This document shows, one piece after another, positions 49,079 through 57,830 of a DNA stretch of 61,318 bases. The notes beneath the pieces were generated by a model that saw only the letters and a program-made list of their open reading frames with translations, ran no database searches and was not told the DNA's origin. A program made the position numbers and the translations under genes. This DNA comes from Ignavibacteria bacterium (lineage in GTDB: Bacteria > Bacteroidota > Ignavibacteria > Tepidaquicellales > Tepidaquicellaceae), in the NCBI GenBank assembly GCA_016783945.1, contig JADHVP010000003.1, forward strand, positions 1 through 61,318, given 5' to 3'. Numbering within the stretch: the stretch's first letter is position 1; each line of letters begins with the position of its first letter.

Positions 49079-50455
49079 ATGAATCTATATGATACAATAG
49101 CTGCGATATCAACTCCAATTGGTGAAGGTGGTATATCTGTTTTAAGAGTCTCGGGTGATGAAACTTTTAAGATTGTTGGAAATATTTTTTTTAAAGATAA
49201 GAATGGAGAAAATAGATTCGATATCTCGCTTAAATCTTCTCACACAATACATTTTGGATATATCTTCGAAAACGATTCTTTGATCGATGAGGTTCTTGTA
49301 TCAATTTTTAAAACTCCACATTCATATACCGGTGAAGACCTTGTAGAGATTTCTACACACGGGGGTGCATACATTGTTCAGAGGATATTACCATTGTTGT
49401 TAAAGAGTGGAGCCCGACATGCAGAGCCTGGTGAGTTTACCAAAAGAGCTTTCTTGAATGGTAAGATCGATCTTTCCCAGGCAGAAGCCGTTGCCGATTT
49501 GATTAAAGCCAAAACCGAAACTGCACATCTCTCATCCATTAAACAACTCGAAGGGTCCTTATCCGAATTCGTAAAAAGCACACGACAGGATTTAATCGAT
49601 ATTACTTCACTGATAGAATTGGAGTTAGATTTTGCGGAAGAGGATTTGGAGTTCGTAAAGAAAGATGAATTAAAAGAAAAGATACAGGAATTATCTTCGA
49701 AGATTGAAAGTGTTCTTGAATCTTATATCACGGGTAAGATTATAAGAGAAGGAATAAATCTTGTAATCGCGGGAAAACCAAACAGCGGTAAATCCTCGTT
49801 GTTTAATTATCTGTTGAAAACTAACAGGGCTATTGTCAGCACTGTACCCGGAACTACGAGAGATTATATTGAGGAAAGTCTGAATATCAAAGGTGTTCTT
49901 TTCAACTTGATTGACACTGCAGGATTAAGAATGTCTTCCGATGAAATTGAAAGTGAAGGAGTCAAAAGAAGTTTTGCGAAGATCGATGAAGCAGACCTTG
50001 TGCTTTATCTGATTGATTCATCCGAAAATATAAAGTTGATAGACGAATGTCTTAATTATTTTAAGAAGAATTTCAACGAAGATAAATCACTTATTGTTTT
50101 TACAAAAATAGATATCGCAAGTAAAGATTTTAATAAGGACGGAATCAAAGTTTCCATATACAAAGATGAATCGATAGAAAGACTGAAAGAGGAAATGATA
50201 AGAAAAGTTGTTTCGGAAGACATTACTAAAAAAACTGGAAGCATTATCCTGACAAACATGCGTCATAAGATATGTTTGGAAAACGTAATCCTGTCATTGA
50301 ATAATGCTGTTAACTCTATTAACAACAGCATGAGTGGAGAATATATTTCGGTAGATCTTAGAAATGCATTAAATTTTCTTGGAAAGATTACCGGGGAGGT
50401 GACAAATGAAGACATACTCAATAACATATTTCAAAAGTTTTGTGTGGGAAAGTGA
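49079..50455 (+). CDS. mnmE: tRNA uridine-5-carboxymethylaminomethyl(34) synthesis GTPase MnmE
   Basis: DTIAAISTPIGEGGISVLRVSG, GKPNSGKSSLFN, VPGTTRDYIEE, DTAGLR, C-terminal FCVGK. Confidence 0.97.
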   Translation: MNLYDTIAAISTPIGEGGISVLRVSGDETFKIVGNIFFKDKNGENRFDISLKSSHTIHFGYIFENDSLIDEVLVSIFKTPHSYTGEDLVEISTHGGAYIVQRILPLLLKSGARHAEPGEFTKRAFLNGKIDLSQAEAVADLIKAKTETAHLSSIKQLEGSLSEFVKSTRQDLIDITSLIELELDFAEEDLEFVKKDELKEKIQELSSKIESVLESYITGKIIREGINLVIAGKPNSGKSSLFNYLLKTNRAIVSTVPGTTRDYIEESLNIKGVLFNLIDTAGLRMSSDEIESEGVKRSFAKIDEADLVLYLIDSSENIKLIDECLNYFKKNFNEDKSLIVFTKIDIASKDFNKDGIKVSIYKDESIERLKEEMIRKVVSEDITKKTGSIILTNMRHKICLENVILSLNNAVNSINNSMSGEYISVDLRNALNFLGKITGEVTNEDILNNIFQKFCVGK

Positions 50456-50501
50456 AGCAGTTCTTAGAAAATTTATTTATATTGTAAAAAATATTATCAA
50501 T

Positions 50502-50600
50502 TTGAAAAACTCCAAAAACAATAACACTACTAAAGACAAATCTCTCGAAAGCTGGATTTGGGATGCTGCGTGTAGTATCAGGGGTGTAGTAAAATTATAA
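50502..50600 (+). pseudogene. Relic of a different-class HsdM N-terminus (KNSKNNNTTKDKSLESWIWDAACSIRG)
   Basis: SLESWIWDAACSIRG is the recognisable start of a type I HsdM class; the frame terminates at once. Confidence 0.7.
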
Positions 50601-50632
50601 TAATATTATTATGATGAAAAATTATTCTTCAA

Positions 50633-51625
50633 TTACTTACTCACAGGGGTGAGTTTTTTAATGCTAATTTGTAAATAATCATTATAAAGTTTTTTTGTTT
50701 CTTCACTAAGAAAGGATTTATTAAGCAGAATTTTTATTTCTTTATTTTTTGAAATTATATCTTTCAAAAAATTTTCTACCCTATTTTTTTTAATACCTGC
50801 TTTCAATCCGAACTCATGGAAATCTTCATAAAGAAAATGGCCGTTTATTTTATAGCTATCAGTTTCGTAACCATTCTTAAATAAAGGTAATGCTAATTCA
50901 GTTTCTTCAGGAAAATGTATTCTTGTATTAAGAATATCATAAGCAGGGCTTAGCTGGTAATCATTGTATTTTAAGTTGTATATTAATGAGAAGTTTTTAA
51001 GGTGAGCATCACCATTATTAATTAAATAATTGATCAAAATTAATTTGAAAAATTTTTCAACTTCGATTGGATAGGCGCTTGAATTTTTTTCCATCAATTC
51101 TGCAATCTCTTCATAGCTTAATTCGTATTTATAATTGATTCCATCTTTTTCTTCTGATTTATTTGATATTTGAGTAAAGTCTTCTAACAAGATTTTTGAT
51201 CCGTCAGGCAGTCTATCAAATCTCTTTGTTAAATAACATGGCTCGTAATTATCCTTAAAAAACAATAAAGCGTTTTCTGCTGTATTTATTTTATATATCT
51301 GCGAGGCTATTTGCATTGTAATATGCTCATTAGCAGGAACTTGATTGACATGTTTCATTACTGTCTGAGGTAGTGGCTTTATTATATACTCACCGCCTTT
51401 ATAAGTCAACTCTAACGAGGTTCCACTTAACATCAATGAATGTTTTTGTTGAACACCGGAGATTGAAATTTTTCCGCTTTGCTGTATTACGACTTCTTCA
51501 TATTCAGGTTTGGAAAATGGTAATATATGGCTTACTTTTTTTCCATTAAAAAATTTTCTGAGGCAGGCTTTGCAAAAAGTTGAGTGGTTAATTTTTAAGC
51601 AAGATGGACAATATAATAAATTCAT
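50633..51625 (-). CDS. hipT: HipT/HipA-like kinase lacking the N-subdomain, with N-terminal CxxC...CxxC finger
   Basis: CPSCLKINHSTFCKACLRKFF; GKISISGVQQKHSLML; LLEDFTQI; LINNGDAHLKNFSL; LSPAYDILNT. Confidence 0.85.
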   Translation of the reverse strand: MNLLYCPSCLKINHSTFCKACLRKFFNGKKVSHILPFSKPEYEEVVIQQSGKISISGVQQKHSLMLSGTSLELTYKGGEYIIKPLPQTVMKHVNQVPANEHITMQIASQIYKINTAENALLFFKDNYEPCYLTKRFDRLPDGSKILLEDFTQISNKSEEKDGINYKYELSYEEIAELMEKNSSAYPIEVEKFFKLILINYLINNGDAHLKNFSLIYNLKYNDYQLSPAYDILNTRIHFPEETELALPLFKNGYETDSYKINGHFLYEDFHEFGLKAGIKKNRVENFLKDIISKNKEIKILLNKSFLSEETKKLYNDYLQISIKKLTPVSK

Positions 51626-51948
51626 TTTATTTCTTTAATAGTTATTGCTCCGATAGTGTCAGTGTGTGCTGTCTTAATTAATCTTGTGAAATAATCTTTC
51701 TCATCAATTTTAAGAATTTTACATTGGATTTTTTTATTTACTCCCTCCGTTAGTAAACCAAAGAAAAATGGAAACAAGTATTTTGATTTATATTCTTTTT
51801 GAGTTTTAGGAAATGAGAGAGAGATTGCAGGTTTATTTTTATCATCGTAATATTTATCAGAGTAAACAAAGTAATACTCATGGGTTGTTTTAACTAAGAC
51901 GCCTGCTAATTCCCCATTATAATAAACATTCGCTTTTTGTTCAGTCAT
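51622..51948 (-). CDS. hipS: HipS-like protein (stand-alone HipA N-subdomain)
   Basis: VYYNGELAGVLVKT...YYFVYSDKY...AISLSFPKTQKEYKSKYLFPFFFGLLTEG. Confidence 0.82.
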   Translation of the reverse strand: MTEQKANVYYNGELAGVLVKTTHEYYFVYSDKYYDDKNKPAISLSFPKTQKEYKSKYLFPFFFGLLTEGVNKKIQCKILKIDEKDYFTRLIKTAHTDTIGAITIKEIK

Positions 51949-52156
51949 TTTTTATTCTTGATGTTAATGTTATTTTCAAACCAAGTGTGTTGAGTATTTT
52001 TAATAAATTACTCAATGTAGGATTCCCTTTTCCCGTTTCTATTTCTTTAAGACTTCTTAACGAAACACCCGATATTTCTGCAAGATCAGTTTGTATTATA
52101 CCTAACGATTTTCTTCTTTTTCTTATATCTTCACATATTTGTTCTAATTCTTTCAT
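51941..52156 (-). CDS. hipB: HipB-like XRE-family antitoxin/repressor
   Basis: IRKRRKSLGIIQTDLAEISGVSLRSLKEIETGKGNPTLSNLLKILNTLGL. Confidence 0.88.
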   Translation of the reverse strand: MKELEQICEDIRKRRKSLGIIQTDLAEISGVSLRSLKEIETGKGNPTLSNLLKILNTLGLKITLTSRIKND

Positions 52157-52179
52157 AATTTTGAAAAAATTTGTAAAAA

Positions 52180-52318
52180 TGCATTATATTGCACTTTTTC
52201 TTTAAATAAGCAAATTTAAAAATAATTAGCAAGTCAAAGGGCAATATAGTGCACTATTAGGTGTTCTATAAAGGAAAAAAGAACCATTCTTGAGTTAAAG
52301 TGCAATGCAATGCACTTT
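52180..52318. promoter_or_regulatory. Three TGCA-N6-TGCA operator-like sites upstream of hipB
   Basis: TGCA TTATAT TGCA (52180-52193); GGCA ATATAG TGCA (52240-52253); AAAGTGCA ATGCAA TGCACTTT (52297-52318). Confidence 0.75.
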
Positions 52319-52695
52319 TCTCAAATAAAAATCTTTGCTCGGAGTCTCGTAAACCTCTTATTATATACCTCACATTAATATTAATTAAAAGCGAGAGTAA
52401 ATAAAAAAGTTAATTCTTGTAAGAAAAAAACTTATAAGAATTTAAGGAAAAAACCTATACAATATTATTATTAATATTCGTATTTTGCATTTCATAGAAA
52501 GGATTTAGGAAACAACTTTACCAATCCTTAATTTTATTATAGACTCTTAGAATAAATACTTGAGTAAATAATTCCAGTGTAAATTTCATAGTGATACTAT
52601 GAATGTATTACAAGTGGATTTTCTTTTTAAAAACTCCTTATTCAAAATTAAATTATTACGAAAAACAAAAACACTATTTATTTTTTTAATCTTAA

Positions 52696-52975
52696 TGCTG
52701 GAAGCTCGCCGAAGTGCTGAGAGCTGATCAACCTGAATTTTTAAGCACTCTCGAAGCCGCAAACGTCATTAGAAATCTCGGGTGAGGAAAGCGGTGTCTA
52801 TGTTGGAGTGCTCAGAGAGTCAGAGACGGATAATATTATTTCAAATGGAATCGAAATGACAACAAGATTCAAAATCACTAACAGGGGCGTAAATGAACTG
52901 CAGGTATTTATGTCGGGCGACGAAGCACCCGGAGAAGGCGGAGTTATACTAACAGGCGGGCTTTTTTTATTTTAA
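52696..52975 (+). pseudogene. Decayed coding fragments in two frames (WKLAEVLRADQPEFLSTLEAANVIRNLG* and GEESGVYVGVLRESETDNIISNGIEMTTRFKITNRGVNELQVFMSGDEAPGEGGVILTGGLFLF*)
   Basis: Protein-like composition with no start codon; frame switch near 52781. Confidence 0.5.
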
Positions 52976-53090
52976 TGTTTAATTAATTAAAGTGAATGGG
53001 TAAATTAAGGAGGATTTGAACTGTTGGGAGACCTGTCTGTAACAGGCAGCGGAACGTTAAAAGTTCATTTGATGATTTATAAAATTAAGC

Positions 53091-53154
53091 ATGATAGCTA
53101 TCATACAAATACAGACAAAAACGGATGTATATGTATGATTTTGTCATACATATA
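53091..53154. promoter_or_regulatory. Two palindromes upstream of the type II-like methyltransferase
   Basis: ATGATAGCTATCAT (53091-53104); TATATGTATGA TTTTG TCATACATATA (53128-53154). Confidence 0.6.
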
Positions 53155-53230
53155 AACGAGTTTAGGCATAAGTTTCAAAATAGATTTGAATATAGAAAAA
53201 TAATTGTTAAATTTATAAAAAATAAAATAT

Positions 53231-54115
53231 ATGAGTCATCAAATAATAAATGGCAACTGTTTAACTGTCCTACAAAGTAAATCAATAAATCAAAAAATTG
53301 ATTTGACATTTTTAGATCCTCCTTTTAATCAGCAAAAGGAATATGCTTATCACCATGATAGTATGGATAAAATAAAATATTGGGAAATGATGACTGATGT
53401 TTGTAAATTCATTTATGATACTACAAACAATGGAGGCTCTATGTACTTTATGCAACGAGAAAAAAATACGGAATTTGTATTGACCGCACTACGAAAAACA
53501 GGTTGGACATTCCAAAATTTAATTATTTGGAAAAAGAAGACATCTGCCGTCCCTATCAATGGAAAATATGGAAAGCATTATCAAATAATTATTTATGCAA
53601 CAAAAGGAGAAAAGGCAAAAACATTTCACCGATTAAGAATAGAACCACCATTACCGCCTAATTATAAATATCAGAGAGAGAATGGAGTATTTGTAACTGA
53701 TGTTTGGGATGATATCAGAGAATTAACTTCTGGCTATTTCGCCGGTAATGAAGCAATTAGAACTGAAAGCGGAGAACGTTTTCACAAACAACAATCTCCG
53801 TTAGCTCTTCTAATCAGAATTATATTAACTTCCACAAAAGTCGGAGATGTTGTACTCGACCCTTTTGCAGGTACAGGTACAACTCTTTGCGTTGCTCATC
53901 AACTACAAAGAAATTCTGTTGGAATCGAAATTGATCCTTCAAATGCGAGTTTAATTCAAAATCGTCTTTCTGAAATTCGTGATGCAGACATAATTCAAAA
54001 GTATTTCAAAGATTATAGTTGCACCGAAAATATTTCAAAAATATGGGGCGATGAATTTGAAAAGAAAATATCTATTAAACCAGTAGGTTTGTTTGCTAAC
54101 CCTATAGAAAACTAA
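53231..54115 (+). CDS. Site-specific DNA methyltransferase (N6-adenine/N4-cytosine; DPPF motif N-terminal, DPFAGTGTT motif C-terminal)
   Basis: LTFLDPPFNQQKEY; VVLDPFAGTGTTLCVAHQLQRNSVGIEIDP. Confidence 0.93.
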   Translation: MSHQIINGNCLTVLQSKSINQKIDLTFLDPPFNQQKEYAYHHDSMDKIKYWEMMTDVCKFIYDTTNNGGSMYFMQREKNTEFVLTALRKTGWTFQNLIIWKKKTSAVPINGKYGKHYQIIIYATKGEKAKTFHRLRIEPPLPPNYKYQRENGVFVTDVWDDIRELTSGYFAGNEAIRTESGERFHKQQSPLALLIRIILTSTKVGDVVLDPFAGTGTTLCVAHQLQRNSVGIEIDPSNASLIQNRLSEIRDADIIQKYFKDYSCTENISKIWGDEFEKKISIKPVGLFANPIEN

Positions 54116-54510
54116 TGTATTCGATATATCATTTTTTTAAAACTTTAATTGACAATAAAAAACAGTTTGTCAAAATTCAGAAATTAGAAGATTTTCCTTT
54201 TGATATCAGTATATTGTCTTGTAAAAATCAAGGGCAGTTTCCCGATTTAGCAATCAGGATAAGTCCAAAAAATGAATTGTTCACAGGAGGGGAATTGATA
54301 GAGTTAAAAGATTGCTATAGTTTCACGGTTTCTTCATTCAATTCAACAATTCCGACAGGTAAAAAAGAAATTTCAAAAGTTATAAAAGGAGAAAATAGTA
54401 TCATCAGGCAACAGATGGAAAATGTTGGTGATGTCATTGATTCGTTGCCAATAAGAGATGTGTTTTATTTAATCCGTGGTAAAAAAAAGGAAAAACAAAA
54501 ATATTGTTAG
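54115..54510 (+). CDS. Probable cognate restriction endonuclease, N-terminal part (PD-(D/E)xK type), frameshifted relative to the next ORF
   Basis: TAATG overlap with the methyltransferase; PDLAIRI...GGELIELKD as PD...ExK. Confidence 0.6.
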   Translation: MYSIYHFFKTLIDNKKQFVKIQKLEDFPFDISILSCKNQGQFPDLAIRISPKNELFTGGELIELKDCYSFTVSSFNSTIPTGKKEISKVIKGENSIIRQQMENVGDVIDSLPIRDVFYLIRGKKKEKQKYC

Positions 54511-54950
54511 TTCATGGTAGTTTTTTTGAAACTATTAAAACAGGAGATTTAATAAGCCAATCATTTTCACAAGTCTTAGAGGAGCGGATACAAGAGAGCG
54601 GTTTTATTGTAAACGATGAAATGAAAAACTTATTAATTGCAATGTTCTCGGAACAAGAGAATTTTAGTAAAGTGAGGACTGTTGAAAAAGCATCTGTAAA
54701 ACTGAGATTTAGAATAATGACGGAAGTTAAAGCAGAAGGAAACATTTTAAATCCAGTTAAATATCCTGAAATTGTTGATGATTCAATTTGTTTTTTATTA
54801 CCCTATCATAATGAACAAGACAGAGAACTTGCGATTAAAAGGATGTCAGCAGTATTCAGCAAAAAGGAAATGAAATTGTTTAATGAATTTAAAATTAAAC
54901 ATCATTTTAACGGATATTTTCTTGTATTTCGACAAAGTTTGAATAAATGA
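54504..54950 (+). CDS. Probable cognate restriction endonuclease, C-terminal part (-1 frame)
   Basis: The -1 frame from the A-run gives RGKKKGKTKILLVHGSFFET..., continuous with this ORF. Confidence 0.55.
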   Translation: MLVHGSFFETIKTGDLISQSFSQVLEERIQESGFIVNDEMKNLLIAMFSEQENFSKVRTVEKASVKLRFRIMTEVKAEGNILNPVKYPEIVDDSICFLLPYHNEQDRELAIKRMSAVFSKKEMKLFNEFKIKHHFNGYFLVFRQSLNK

Positions 54951-54957
54951 AACCTAC

Positions 54958-55093
54958 GCATAACAGCACCTTGGCAAAAAAGCGGATTCCGTGGTAGTAT
55001 CAAGTGCAGTGTTTCAAATAGACTGTTGTGGTAGGTTGACAGTTTTGTGCTTCTCTAAATCCGCTTCTTCGCCAAGCCGAAACCGTTATATGC
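54958..55093 (+). other. Integron attC-like site 1
   Basis: GCATAAC ... CTTGGC ... AAGCGGATT --- AATCCGCTT ... GCCAAG ... GTTATATGC. Confidence 0.65.
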
Positions 55094-55198
55094 CAATAAA
55101 AAAACAGAAATAGATGATTTTCACAAACTCCCGTCCCCGCTGAGTCTCCCTGCCCGCGTCAGGCAGGCAACCGTTGTGTGCAATATTAACGCAGAGAT

Positions 55199-55867
55199 AT
55201 GAACAGACTGATAATTACATTTTTGGCTTTTATCTTAGTACAATCATGCCAATCTCAAGAAAACACAAGAAAGATTGACAAGTACATAGATAATTCTATT
55301 AAAGTTGACTCTTTAAATATTCCAATAAACAGTAATCAAGTATATTTTCCTTTTGAGATTTTTACTGACACTGCTATTTATGCAGGTTATGATACATTTC
55401 GCGTTGACTGGTATTCAAGTCATTTACATGCAATGAGAGAACCATTATTGTTCAATAAAAAACCAGATAAAGAAATATACAGATTTTTATGGTTGAGAAC
55501 ATTTCATAATCCTGTTTCAATTAGAATAGAAAAGCAGAATGATAAATATACTTTAACATGGAAGCTTTGTGATGGAGCTGGTGGATATGAACCAGGACAA
55601 ATGACAATAAATGAGACTAAAACAATTGATAAGGAAACTTGGGATAAGTTTTATTCATATTTAGAGGCGGCTGATTTTTGGAATTTAAATACAATTGAAG
55701 TTGATATATTAGGGACTGATGGCTCTCAATGGATACTTGAAGGGGTGAATAATGAAAGATATCATGTTGTTGATAGATGGACACCAAGTGGCGGAAGTTA
55801 CTATGACTGCTGTGACTTTCTGATTGGATTAACAGATTTGAAAATTAAGAAAGACAATAAATACTAA
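55199..55867 (+). CDS. Cassette-borne hypothetical lipoprotein (222 aa)
   Basis: Lipobox-like ILVQSC; single ORF between attC-like sites. Confidence 0.7.
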   Translation: MNRLIITFLAFILVQSCQSQENTRKIDKYIDNSIKVDSLNIPINSNQVYFPFEIFTDTAIYAGYDTFRVDWYSSHLHAMREPLLFNKKPDKEIYRFLWLRTFHNPVSIRIEKQNDKYTLTWKLCDGAGGYEPGQMTINETKTIDKETWDKFYSYLEAADFWNLNTIEVDILGTDGSQWILEGVNNERYHVVDRWTPSGGSYYDCCDFLIGLTDLKIKKDNKY

Positions 55868-55876
55868 AAAAATACT

Positions 55877-56009
55877 GCACACAACAAGGGCTCATATGCA
55901 ATAGGGATGAGTTGTTTAAGTGAAATTTATTACTAACTTTATAATCTCATATAAACTTAAATATTTAACGCTTCGGTAGCCCTACTGCACATAGCCGTAA
56001 CCGTTAGCG
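55877..56009 (+). other. Integron attC-like site 2
   Basis: GCACACAAC ... GGCTCATATGCAATAGGG --- CCCTACTGCACATAGCC ... GTTAGCG, imperfect stem with an extrahelical base. Confidence 0.7.
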
Positions 56010-56084
56010 TTAATTGGAGCAGGCTATAGAAAAAAGAATGTAAATCCAAAAATAAATTTGACAAATAATTAAACAATAAGGAGT

Positions 56085-56633
56085 ATGGAAATGAATAAAT
56101 CAACATTAAAACACACAACAACCGTTTATCCCGACAAACAGGAAAGTGATCTATATATTCACAAATTGCAAGTTAGCAAAACAGCTATGTGCAATTTCAG
56201 GTGGACTATCCTTCTTCTTATTTCGATATTTTTAATATTTTCTTCTAATGTATTTTCTCAAGCTAATCTCAATAATATAAAAGTTTGGGAAGGTTGGAAA
56301 TTAGGTAATGTAATAAAAGTTTCAGGTATCATTAAATACGGAGATACATTGACAAAAGCTGATGGTGAAAAAAGATATTTGATTGTTCAAAAAATAGATG
56401 AACAACCATTAGACTTTTCAAGAACTATCAAAATCTCATGTAACAAAGAATCATTTTCAAAATTAAATAATGGTGATACAGTAATGTTACTTGGATATGT
56501 AAGTGGCGGCTATAATGGTATTCCAAATTCCAATGATTATGATATAGAATATTGGCAAGATATGCCATTTCATTTCGATTTATATTTCGTTGTTTTGAAA
56601 GAGGGTGACGAAATTAAAAATAAGGAAAAATGA
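56085..56633 (+). CDS. Cassette-borne hypothetical secreted/membrane-anchored protein (182 aa)
   Basis: Hydrophobic segment WTILLLISIFLIFSSNVFS followed by a soluble domain. Confidence 0.6.
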   Translation: MEMNKSTLKHTTTVYPDKQESDLYIHKLQVSKTAMCNFRWTILLLISIFLIFSSNVFSQANLNNIKVWEGWKLGNVIKVSGIIKYGDTLTKADGEKRYLIVQKIDEQPLDFSRTIKISCNKESFSKLNNGDTVMLLGYVSGGYNGIPNSNDYDIEYWQDMPFHFDLYFVVLKEGDEIKNKEK

Positions 56634-56785
56634 AAACGCTCATATAAATTATACTTCAAAAGGTTGTTTTTAAGTTCAAGCAGAGTCTTCCGAAACTTTC
56701 ACTATTCATAAAGAGTGTTTATATAGATTGTATATAGAAAAATGAGATCCACAGAGTCCCTCTGTCGAGGAGACTCTGCGGAAGA

Positions 56786-57159
56786 ATTAAACTCCTGAAA
56801 ACAAGCTTTATACGGTTACTCTTATAAATGCAGGACCTTTTACAAATGCTGCTTTGTTCACAACTGCAATTAGTAAACAAGAGGGGATAATACCAGAGAA
56901 ATTTAATTTACATCAAAACTATCCAAACCCGTTCAACCCGGCTACAAACATAAAATTCGATATTCCGAAGGCTTCATACGTAAAATTAACAATTTACAAT
57001 ATACTTGGAAAAGAAATCACAACACTTGTAAATGAAAAACTAAACATAGGAAGCTATGAGGTTAACTGGAATGGAATGGATTATCCGAGTGGGGTATATT
57101 TTTATAAGATGGTAGCTGATGATTATGTAAATGTTAAGAAGATGGTTCTTCTCAAATAA
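56786..57159 (+). pseudogene. C-terminal remnant of a T9SS-secreted protein
   Basis: TPENKLYTVTLINAGPFTNAALFTTAIS...HQNYPNPFNPATNIKFDIP...KKMVLLK with no signal peptide or catalytic domain. Confidence 0.65.
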
Positions 57160-57197
57160 TTTAAGAAAAGATAGAATAAAGATTATTTGTGTTTTGG

Positions 57198-57226
57198 AAA
57201 AGGGGTATTTTAAAATACCCCTTTTT
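57198..57226. terminator. Bidirectional-looking Rho-independent terminator
   Basis: Perfect palindrome AAAAGGGGTATTTTAAAATACCCCTTTT followed by a T. Confidence 0.8.
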
Positions 57227-57374
57227 ATATTATTCTTTAGGTCTGAAAATATGTCAATTCCGGAATAATTGAAAATTAGTATTATTATGATTTATTTTTT
57301 AAAATAGAGTTTCGAAAGTACTTTTCATTGATATTGATTGTTAAAAATTCTATTTTTACATCTTATTTAAAAAT

Positions 57375-57830
57375 ATGAAAACAGTAATTAGAAAATCGAT
57401 TAGAACAACAAAGTTTGCCGTACGGAATGAGAATCCCGAGAAATGGTACTTGGTTGATGCGGATGGTAAAATCCTGGGAAGGCTTGCAAGTGAAATTGCG
57501 AAAAGAATAAGAGGTAAGTATAATCCTCAATACACACCGAATGCAGACCTTGGTGATTGGGTCGTAGTCATTAATGCAGGAAAAGTTAAGATGACTGGCA
57601 AAAGGGCTGAACAGAAAGAGTATTTAACTCACTCCGGTTACCCTGGTGGTCAAAAATCGAAGACTTACAAAGAATTAATCGTGAAGAATCCGGAAAAAGT
57701 TATACAGTTAGCTGTTAAAAGGATGCTGCCGAAAACAAGGCTTGGGAAAACGCTTTTTAACAAATTGAAAGTATATAAAGGAAGTGAGCATCCTCATTCT
57801 GCTCAGAATCCAGTAGAATTAAAATTTTAA
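57375..57830 (+). CDS. rplM: 50S ribosomal protein L13
   Basis: WYLVDADGKILGRLASEIAKRIRGK; MTGKRAEQKEYLTHSGYPGG; GSEHPHSAQNP. Confidence 0.97.
   Translation: MKTVIRKSIRTTKFAVRNENPEKWYLVDADGKILGRLASEIAKRIRGKYNPQYTPNADLGDWVVVINAGKVKMTGKRAEQKEYLTHSGYPGGQKSKTYKELIVKNPEKVIQLAVKRMLPKTRLGKTLFNKLKVYKGSEHPHSAQNPVELKF

Follow-up and report, generated by a model that had tools for sequence, protein, structure and literature searches.

Integrons combine an integrase, IntI, with an attI site and an array of attC sites. The window, by which we mean the whole stretch of 61,318 nucleotides that was analysed, contains two attC-like sites, W1 and W2, at a distance of 920 bp and, unlike an integron, has no recombinase. 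From the sequence alone, an initial annotation had read them as sites bracketing single-gene cassettes in a CALIN, an attC cluster lacking integrase. The question that this locus raises is which recombination system such sites come from.

Sites and cassettes in the window

The 61-kb window was scanned with a covariance model, R1, which had been trained on 30 aligned sites from outside, with the window sequence excluded. W1 and W2 were its sole matches (Table 1), the runner-up scoring 13.4 bits, and an Rfam search of the window returned two tRNAs and nothing else. Acceptance by an outside-trained model bears out the positions, AAC/GTT ends and internal stems that the initial annotation had given to both sites, with the correction that the pairing that counts sits on the minus strand. 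Both attC-like sites are real.

W1 has its hairpin on the minus strand, with the cassette genes on the plus strand, and boxes R'' = GCATAAC and R' = GTTATATGC (55085). Its bottom strand folds at -24.4 kcal/mol (z -4.0; equalled by 0 of 200 shuffles) and its top strand at -17.1, though W1 may be weakened because its three outer L pairs are broken. W2 has R'' = GCACACAAC and R' = GTTAGCG, and its paired bottom-strand arms leave a single extrahelical base, located in L''. All 17 of its 17 arm pairs are available on the bottom strand only, as two G.T pairs become A.C on the top. The free minimum-energy fold of W2 is a different hairpin and not the attC stem, which counts against the explanation that we favour below. 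Apart from this deviation, both sites have the AAC/GTT core and the bottom-strand preference of an attC hairpin.

Table 1. Features of the cassette block, in window coordinates (R1 E-values are rough)
Feature	Position	Strand	Description
Possible upstream cargo	53231..54950	+	Methyltransferase and two overlapping ORFs; candidate cassette only
attC-like site W1	54956..55093	-	R1 60.3 bits, E 2e-11
Orphan right half-site AACC/GTTGTGTGC	55169..55181	+	Left half missing; bounds cassette 1
Cassette 1, 830 bp	55174..56003	+	G/TTGTGTGC ... GCACACAAC-attC; ends complementary 9/9
Cassette 1 gene, 222 aa	55199..55867	+	ORF; lipoprotein-like N-terminus; no Pfam family
attC-like site W2, closes cassette 1	55877..56011	-	R1 49.7 bits, E 5e-9
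Cassette 2 remnant, own attC lost	56004..56665	+	Starts at the W2 R' box
Cassette 2 gene, 182 aa	56085..56633	+	ORF; exported-looking; no Pfam family
Interspersed chromosomal repeat, ~120 bp, right border of block	56666..56785 (approximate)		Near-copies on at least four other contigs (C59, C58, C129, C107)

The 9-nt match between the start and end of cassette 1 that had been pointed out before is exact, and it is formed by a pair that is unique in the window: GTTGTGTGC (55173) and GCACACAAC (55877) occur once each in the 61 kb, at opposite ends of the cassette. The proposed bracketing holds only on the right, where W2 ends the cassette; on the left, the R' box of W1 lies 88 bp ahead of the cassette start. 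Between them is the orphan half-site AACC/GTTGTGTGC, preceded by a spacer that is partly repeated, as short near-copies, at other places in the genome. An end of the form GCATATAAC, matching the W1 right box GTTATATGC, was absent in a sequence search. The AACGCT at 56635, previously taken as the start of a truncated third site, is the wrong box, as a GTTAGCG start needs a CGCTAAC end, and this end is absent from 56012-57375. The end match thus holds for cassette 1 (9/9) and fails for cassette 2 and for the upstream block, whose expected start, GTTATGC, was not found in 50400-54960.

A synteny check showed that the pairing of the two ORFs is not fixed in relatives, as the cassette reading had implied. 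The 222-aa protein has homologues in three other genomes (G007 and G020 at E about 1e-35, and weakly G041), with no attC-like sites of the W1/W2 kind in the flanks of the two close ones, and the 182-aa protein has no homologue among 98 relatives. Upstream, the gene at 53231-54115 encodes a type II-like methyltransferase (PF01555 and PADLOC MTase_II). The overlapping ORFs of 131 and 148 aa beside it (54115-54950) may together represent one partner broken by a frameshift, perhaps a restriction enzyme. We take the genes flanking the block to be an mnmE-like gene (ending at 50455) and a uL13-like ribosomal protein gene (57375). A hipBA-like toxin-antitoxin set, in which HipA is divided between an N-terminal and a C-terminal ORF, occupies 50633-52156 on the minus strand. 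The domain search also found a type IX secretion sorting domain, which together with the related contig of a named genome (see below) suggests an organism in or close to Bacteroidota. By itself, the window block is a small ordinary orphan cassette block.

The source draft genome (2.73 Mb in 139 contigs, 77.8% complete, contamination estimate 3.3%) was searched for an integrase, as had been advised. No IntI was present in the whole assembly (78% complete) above the curated cut-off: the best TIGR02249 score was 90.8 bits against a cut-off of 265, and the best matches are XerD-like. Because this 78%-complete genome has no IntI, the block is CALIN-like, with two attC sites close together in a genome with neither IntI nor the recombinase described below. 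Three weak R1 sites (27.9 to 30.1 bits) lie on one strand of another contig (L221; G000:C122:28500-37500), where most genes run as expected and no neighbouring box match was seen; they form a second, decayed cassette cluster of this genome. Contig C76 has one R1 site that is weaker still, and a 13-nt motif search of the genome gave seven matches, none convincing as an extra site bar the weak one on C122. XerD is present as a near-identical pair (G000:C5:7449-8273 and G000:C119:2721-3536), reflecting duplication or strain mixture in the assembly.

A family of attC-like hairpins

The training set for R1 began with a seed motif from the 3' ends of W1 and W2, which led to viral-collection contigs and to JAQBNI010000045.1 (Bacteroidota bacterium RYN_289, L184), the one true relative among the 12 matches obtained when named genomes were scanned for the exact motif. 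The seed contigs carry hairpins of this kind in long arrays, and so do Flavobacterium phages, which were reached via their methyltransferase genes. There is mild circularity, as the seed motif is partly W2-derived, but most training sites were found otherwise, and W1 lacks most of the seed motif yet scores above W2. The training stem has 127 double-change cells, compared with 49.7 in shuffles, and shifting the partner columns abolishes this signal; the AAC/GTT ends are kept in 30 of 30 sites. At columns 30/123 and 20/133 of alignment A3 lie a pair that is G.T in 24 of the 30 sites and another that departs from standard pairing in 16 of them, as though particular wobbles were kept to flag the strand to be recombined.

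R1 sites (E 1e-4) occur in at least 87 of 294 genomes surveyed, including at least 14 of the window's own family counting its own genome, so that the search for the same sites in relatives, also suggested at the outset, was positive. These site counts are lower bounds, given strict filters and the scoring of up to 11 candidates per genome. Across 20 array regions, 159 of 175 between-site genes lie opposite the hairpin strand, as they do in integrons and in the window. When neighbouring sites less than 2.6 kb apart were paired, 37 of 55 pairs agreed in at least 8 of 9 nt (shuffled mean 5.0, maximum 12); the pairs include REC-linked loci fetched later, and the 9-nt cassette signature plays no part in the R1 model. 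Together, these comparisons place W1 and W2 in a family of attC-like hairpins that make up cassette arrays in numerous genomes of the class.

A tyrosine recombinase at array ends

A profile search with IntI proteins identified tyrosine recombinases, hereafter REC, at array ends in genomes without IntI. With profile A5, built from six RECs, members of their own clade score 398 to 463 bits, and no IntI or Xer exceeds 209. REC was found in 66 of 294 genomes, and 37 of these also have R1 sites (p 2e-7). Counting against the explanation favoured below are 50 genomes with sites and no REC and 29 with REC and no R1 sites, among the 294 surveyed and with site counts as lower bounds. Several RECs without a nearby site sit within ~100 to 350 bp of a contig end, where arrays would break assembly.

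In all examined loci where REC and sites share one stretch, the nearest site has REC upstream in the cassette sense, at 0.3 to 5 kb. The orientation of REC itself goes by family, some pointing with the cassettes and others away, and one locus (L296) has two RECs, one with sites also on its other side, which we read as tandem arrays. In 14 of 18 arrays, an exact copy of the first cassette's 9-nt start, as predicted from R'' of the first site, lies no more than 130 bp from REC, and one more array (L255) has it at 240 bp; foreign first-cassette boxes were found beside REC in 0 of 272 comparisons. The sequence ahead of this junction is often like TTGCRTATATWWRWKT, most clearly where REC points with the cassettes. 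The motif varies, chiefly in divergent-REC arrays, which counts against the explanation favoured below. Position and box match identify the junction beside REC as a predicted analogue of attI.

The REC linker, from K..KDR to HxLRH, measures 54-59 residues in 25 of 25 proteins, compared with 65 in the XerD of the window's own genome and 100 in 15 of 15 readable IntI. In keeping with this, TIGR02249 hits REC as two pieces, with a gap where IntI has its additional domain (I2). By these alignments REC is a predicted tyrosine recombinase close to IntI and without the I2 insertion. In the tree, IntI forms one clade (100/100), Xer stands apart (100/99) and REC surrounds IntI. We considered IntI to be nested inside REC, but this is unproven, as a single REC clade stays compatible with the data (constraint not rejected, p 0.41); the I2-bearing IntI may descend from a member of the REC group. 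REC shares its fold with XerC/XerD/XerA, and its profile matches XerA and Xer-like PDB structures, but the tree puts it with IntI, apart from the own-genome XerD (100/99). It also falls near the 'integron-like subgroup' of simple tyrosine recombinases, as described in the available part of Smyshlyaev et al. 2021 (PMC8138268), and near NCBIfam NF040815, 'site-specific tyrosine recombinase/integron integrase'; neither NF040815 nor that part of the paper connects these enzymes with cassette arrays or a family of sites.

The 29 REC genomes without an R1 site include G049, G196, G222 and G236, and REC may serve further site families that are invisible to R1. Of all RECs in the tree, that of G236 stands nearest to IntI (95/91). 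L011, considered as a REC fragment, was rejected as an unrelated integrase remnant.

Origin of the window block

We think it likely that the window block is what is left, orphaned and partly decayed, of an integron-like array of the I2-less REC lineage: a remnant with two sites. In such arrays, REC would recombine the folded bottom strand of R1 sites with the attI-like junction. By analogy with IntI acting on attI and attC, cassettes would be inserted next to REC and excised as circles, with REC presumably acting without an I2 that reads extrahelical bases. Counting against this explanation, no REC was detected in the window's own genome at E 1e-70, nor any attI-like motif above chance in the window, in a test built on the REC-type junction motif. 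REC would here have been lost or left unassembled, and the window cassettes are therefore probably immobile. Like integrons, REC arrays have the recombinase upstream of co-oriented cassettes with the first cassette joined beside it, GTT...AAC cassette ends, and hairpin sites with unequal spacers and strand asymmetry. Unlike integrons, they have a REC without I2 that is often co-directed with the cassettes, and sites mostly without extrahelical bases. We give an even chance to the broader proposal that the bacterial class and its phages harbour a second integron class, defined by an I2-less IntI-like recombinase, its own attI-like junction and hairpin cassettes mostly without extrahelical bases.

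The alternative that survives best, though we consider it unlikely, is an ordinary CALIN (IntegronFinder, PMC9024848), in which a standard IntI acts in trans on normal attC sites and the adjacent REC genes are irrelevant. The window resembles one in its two attC-like sites, cassettes and integrase-less genome; the cassette logic is identical, and IntI scores above the cut-off in 22 of 148 class relatives. According to the available text of Qi et al. 2023 (PMC9892861), IntI1 recombined phage CALIN sites in E. coli, including one from Polaribacter phage P12002L, but R1 matched nothing in P12002L at E 0.01, so that membership of its sites in the R1 family lacks support. IntI is found above the cut-off in no genome of the window's own or sister family, yet many genomes there have arrays. 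No R1 sites were found in 20 IntI-bearing loci (288 kb), several of which hold clear attC arrays, and across genomes the sites show no association with IntI, which is present in 5 of 35 that carry them and in 17 of 113 that lack them (p 0.64). IntI-type sites from three loci have at least two extra L'' bases in 14 of 14 cases, whereas of 108 REC-type sites 60 lack extra bases altogether and 10 have them in L'' alone; W1 has none and W2 one, so that W2 makes the site classes overlap. Spacer asymmetry is common to both types. An ordinary CALIN would also leave the position of REC and the attI-like junction unexplained. The initial CALIN reading thus stands as regards an integrase-less attC cluster, but the family's absence from the 20 IntI loci speaks against filing it with ordinary IntI integrons, and such a classification of W1 and W2 is not supported by the sequence comparisons.

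The I2 helix is described as necessary for cassette capture, as the reader of extrahelical attC bases, as unique to IntI among proteins and as having an origin without intermediates (PMC7790495). Earlier intI surveys picked genes by the I2 domain (PMC2426708), and we infer that surveys requiring it would call even REC-headed arrays CALINs. Our literature search, which had preprints and most subscription papers outside its reach, found no I2-less integrons and no such arrays in Bacteroidota. If the REC reading is true, folded-site cassette capture needs no I2, the origin of integrons becomes testable, and a cassette pool is exposed that current tools tend to miss or call orphan. Should IntI have arisen within the REC group, that group would stand between Xer recombinases and integrons as the intermediate so far missing. 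As relatives with the same sites appear to use an I2-less tyrosine recombinase, a possible second kind of integron can be put to the test.

It is quite improbable that the window cassettes were brought in by a phage-borne rather than a chromosomal array. Both sites do have close counterparts in viral-collection contigs: the W1 arms are identical to those of L177:2961-3092, and W2 is homologous to L176:1903-2032, with similar arms and the same GTTGTGTGC box. Long arrays of the R1 family also occur in phages. However, genes in phage cassettes are flipped onto the hairpin strand, whereas those of the window and of chromosomal arrays lie on the other strand. In two phage contigs with R1 sites, G148 and G149, 2 to 3 kb separate REC from the closest site, and with respect to site orientation REC occupies the side that it has in chromosomes; an attI-like box match lies ~1.2 kb from REC in G149, and none was found in G148. 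The notion that phage sites are simply inverted attCs was dropped, as the recombinase side is unchanged and the genes within the cassettes are flipped. The phage CALINs of Qi et al. (PMC9892861, available text) resemble R1 arrays in lying in phages, some of Bacteroidota, and in their methyltransferase cassettes, and R1 finds arrays like them in Flavobacterium phages; unlike REC arrays, they were used with IntI1, and no dedicated I2-less recombinase is reported in that text.

That the hairpins are mere interspersed palindromes or terminators is highly improbable: stable hairpins do lie 3' of genes, and the W2 top strand is also somewhat better folded than shuffles, but this would not account for the 9-nt complementarity that links the right end of a site to the left end of the next, the uniqueness of the complementary pair in the window, the ends shared by every training site or the uniform orientation towards genes.

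Three isolated Flavobacterium phages (MN812206, MN812233 and MN812227; L199, L200 and L201) carry arrays of the W1/W2 site family. Between their sites are long stretches of early genes, many of them for DNA methyltransferases and small proteins, and neighbouring boxes match exactly. In the phage-type arrays L066, L176, L082 and L177, several methyltransferase ORFs begin within the preceding site, the second arm of which consequently encodes the methyltransferase N-termini.
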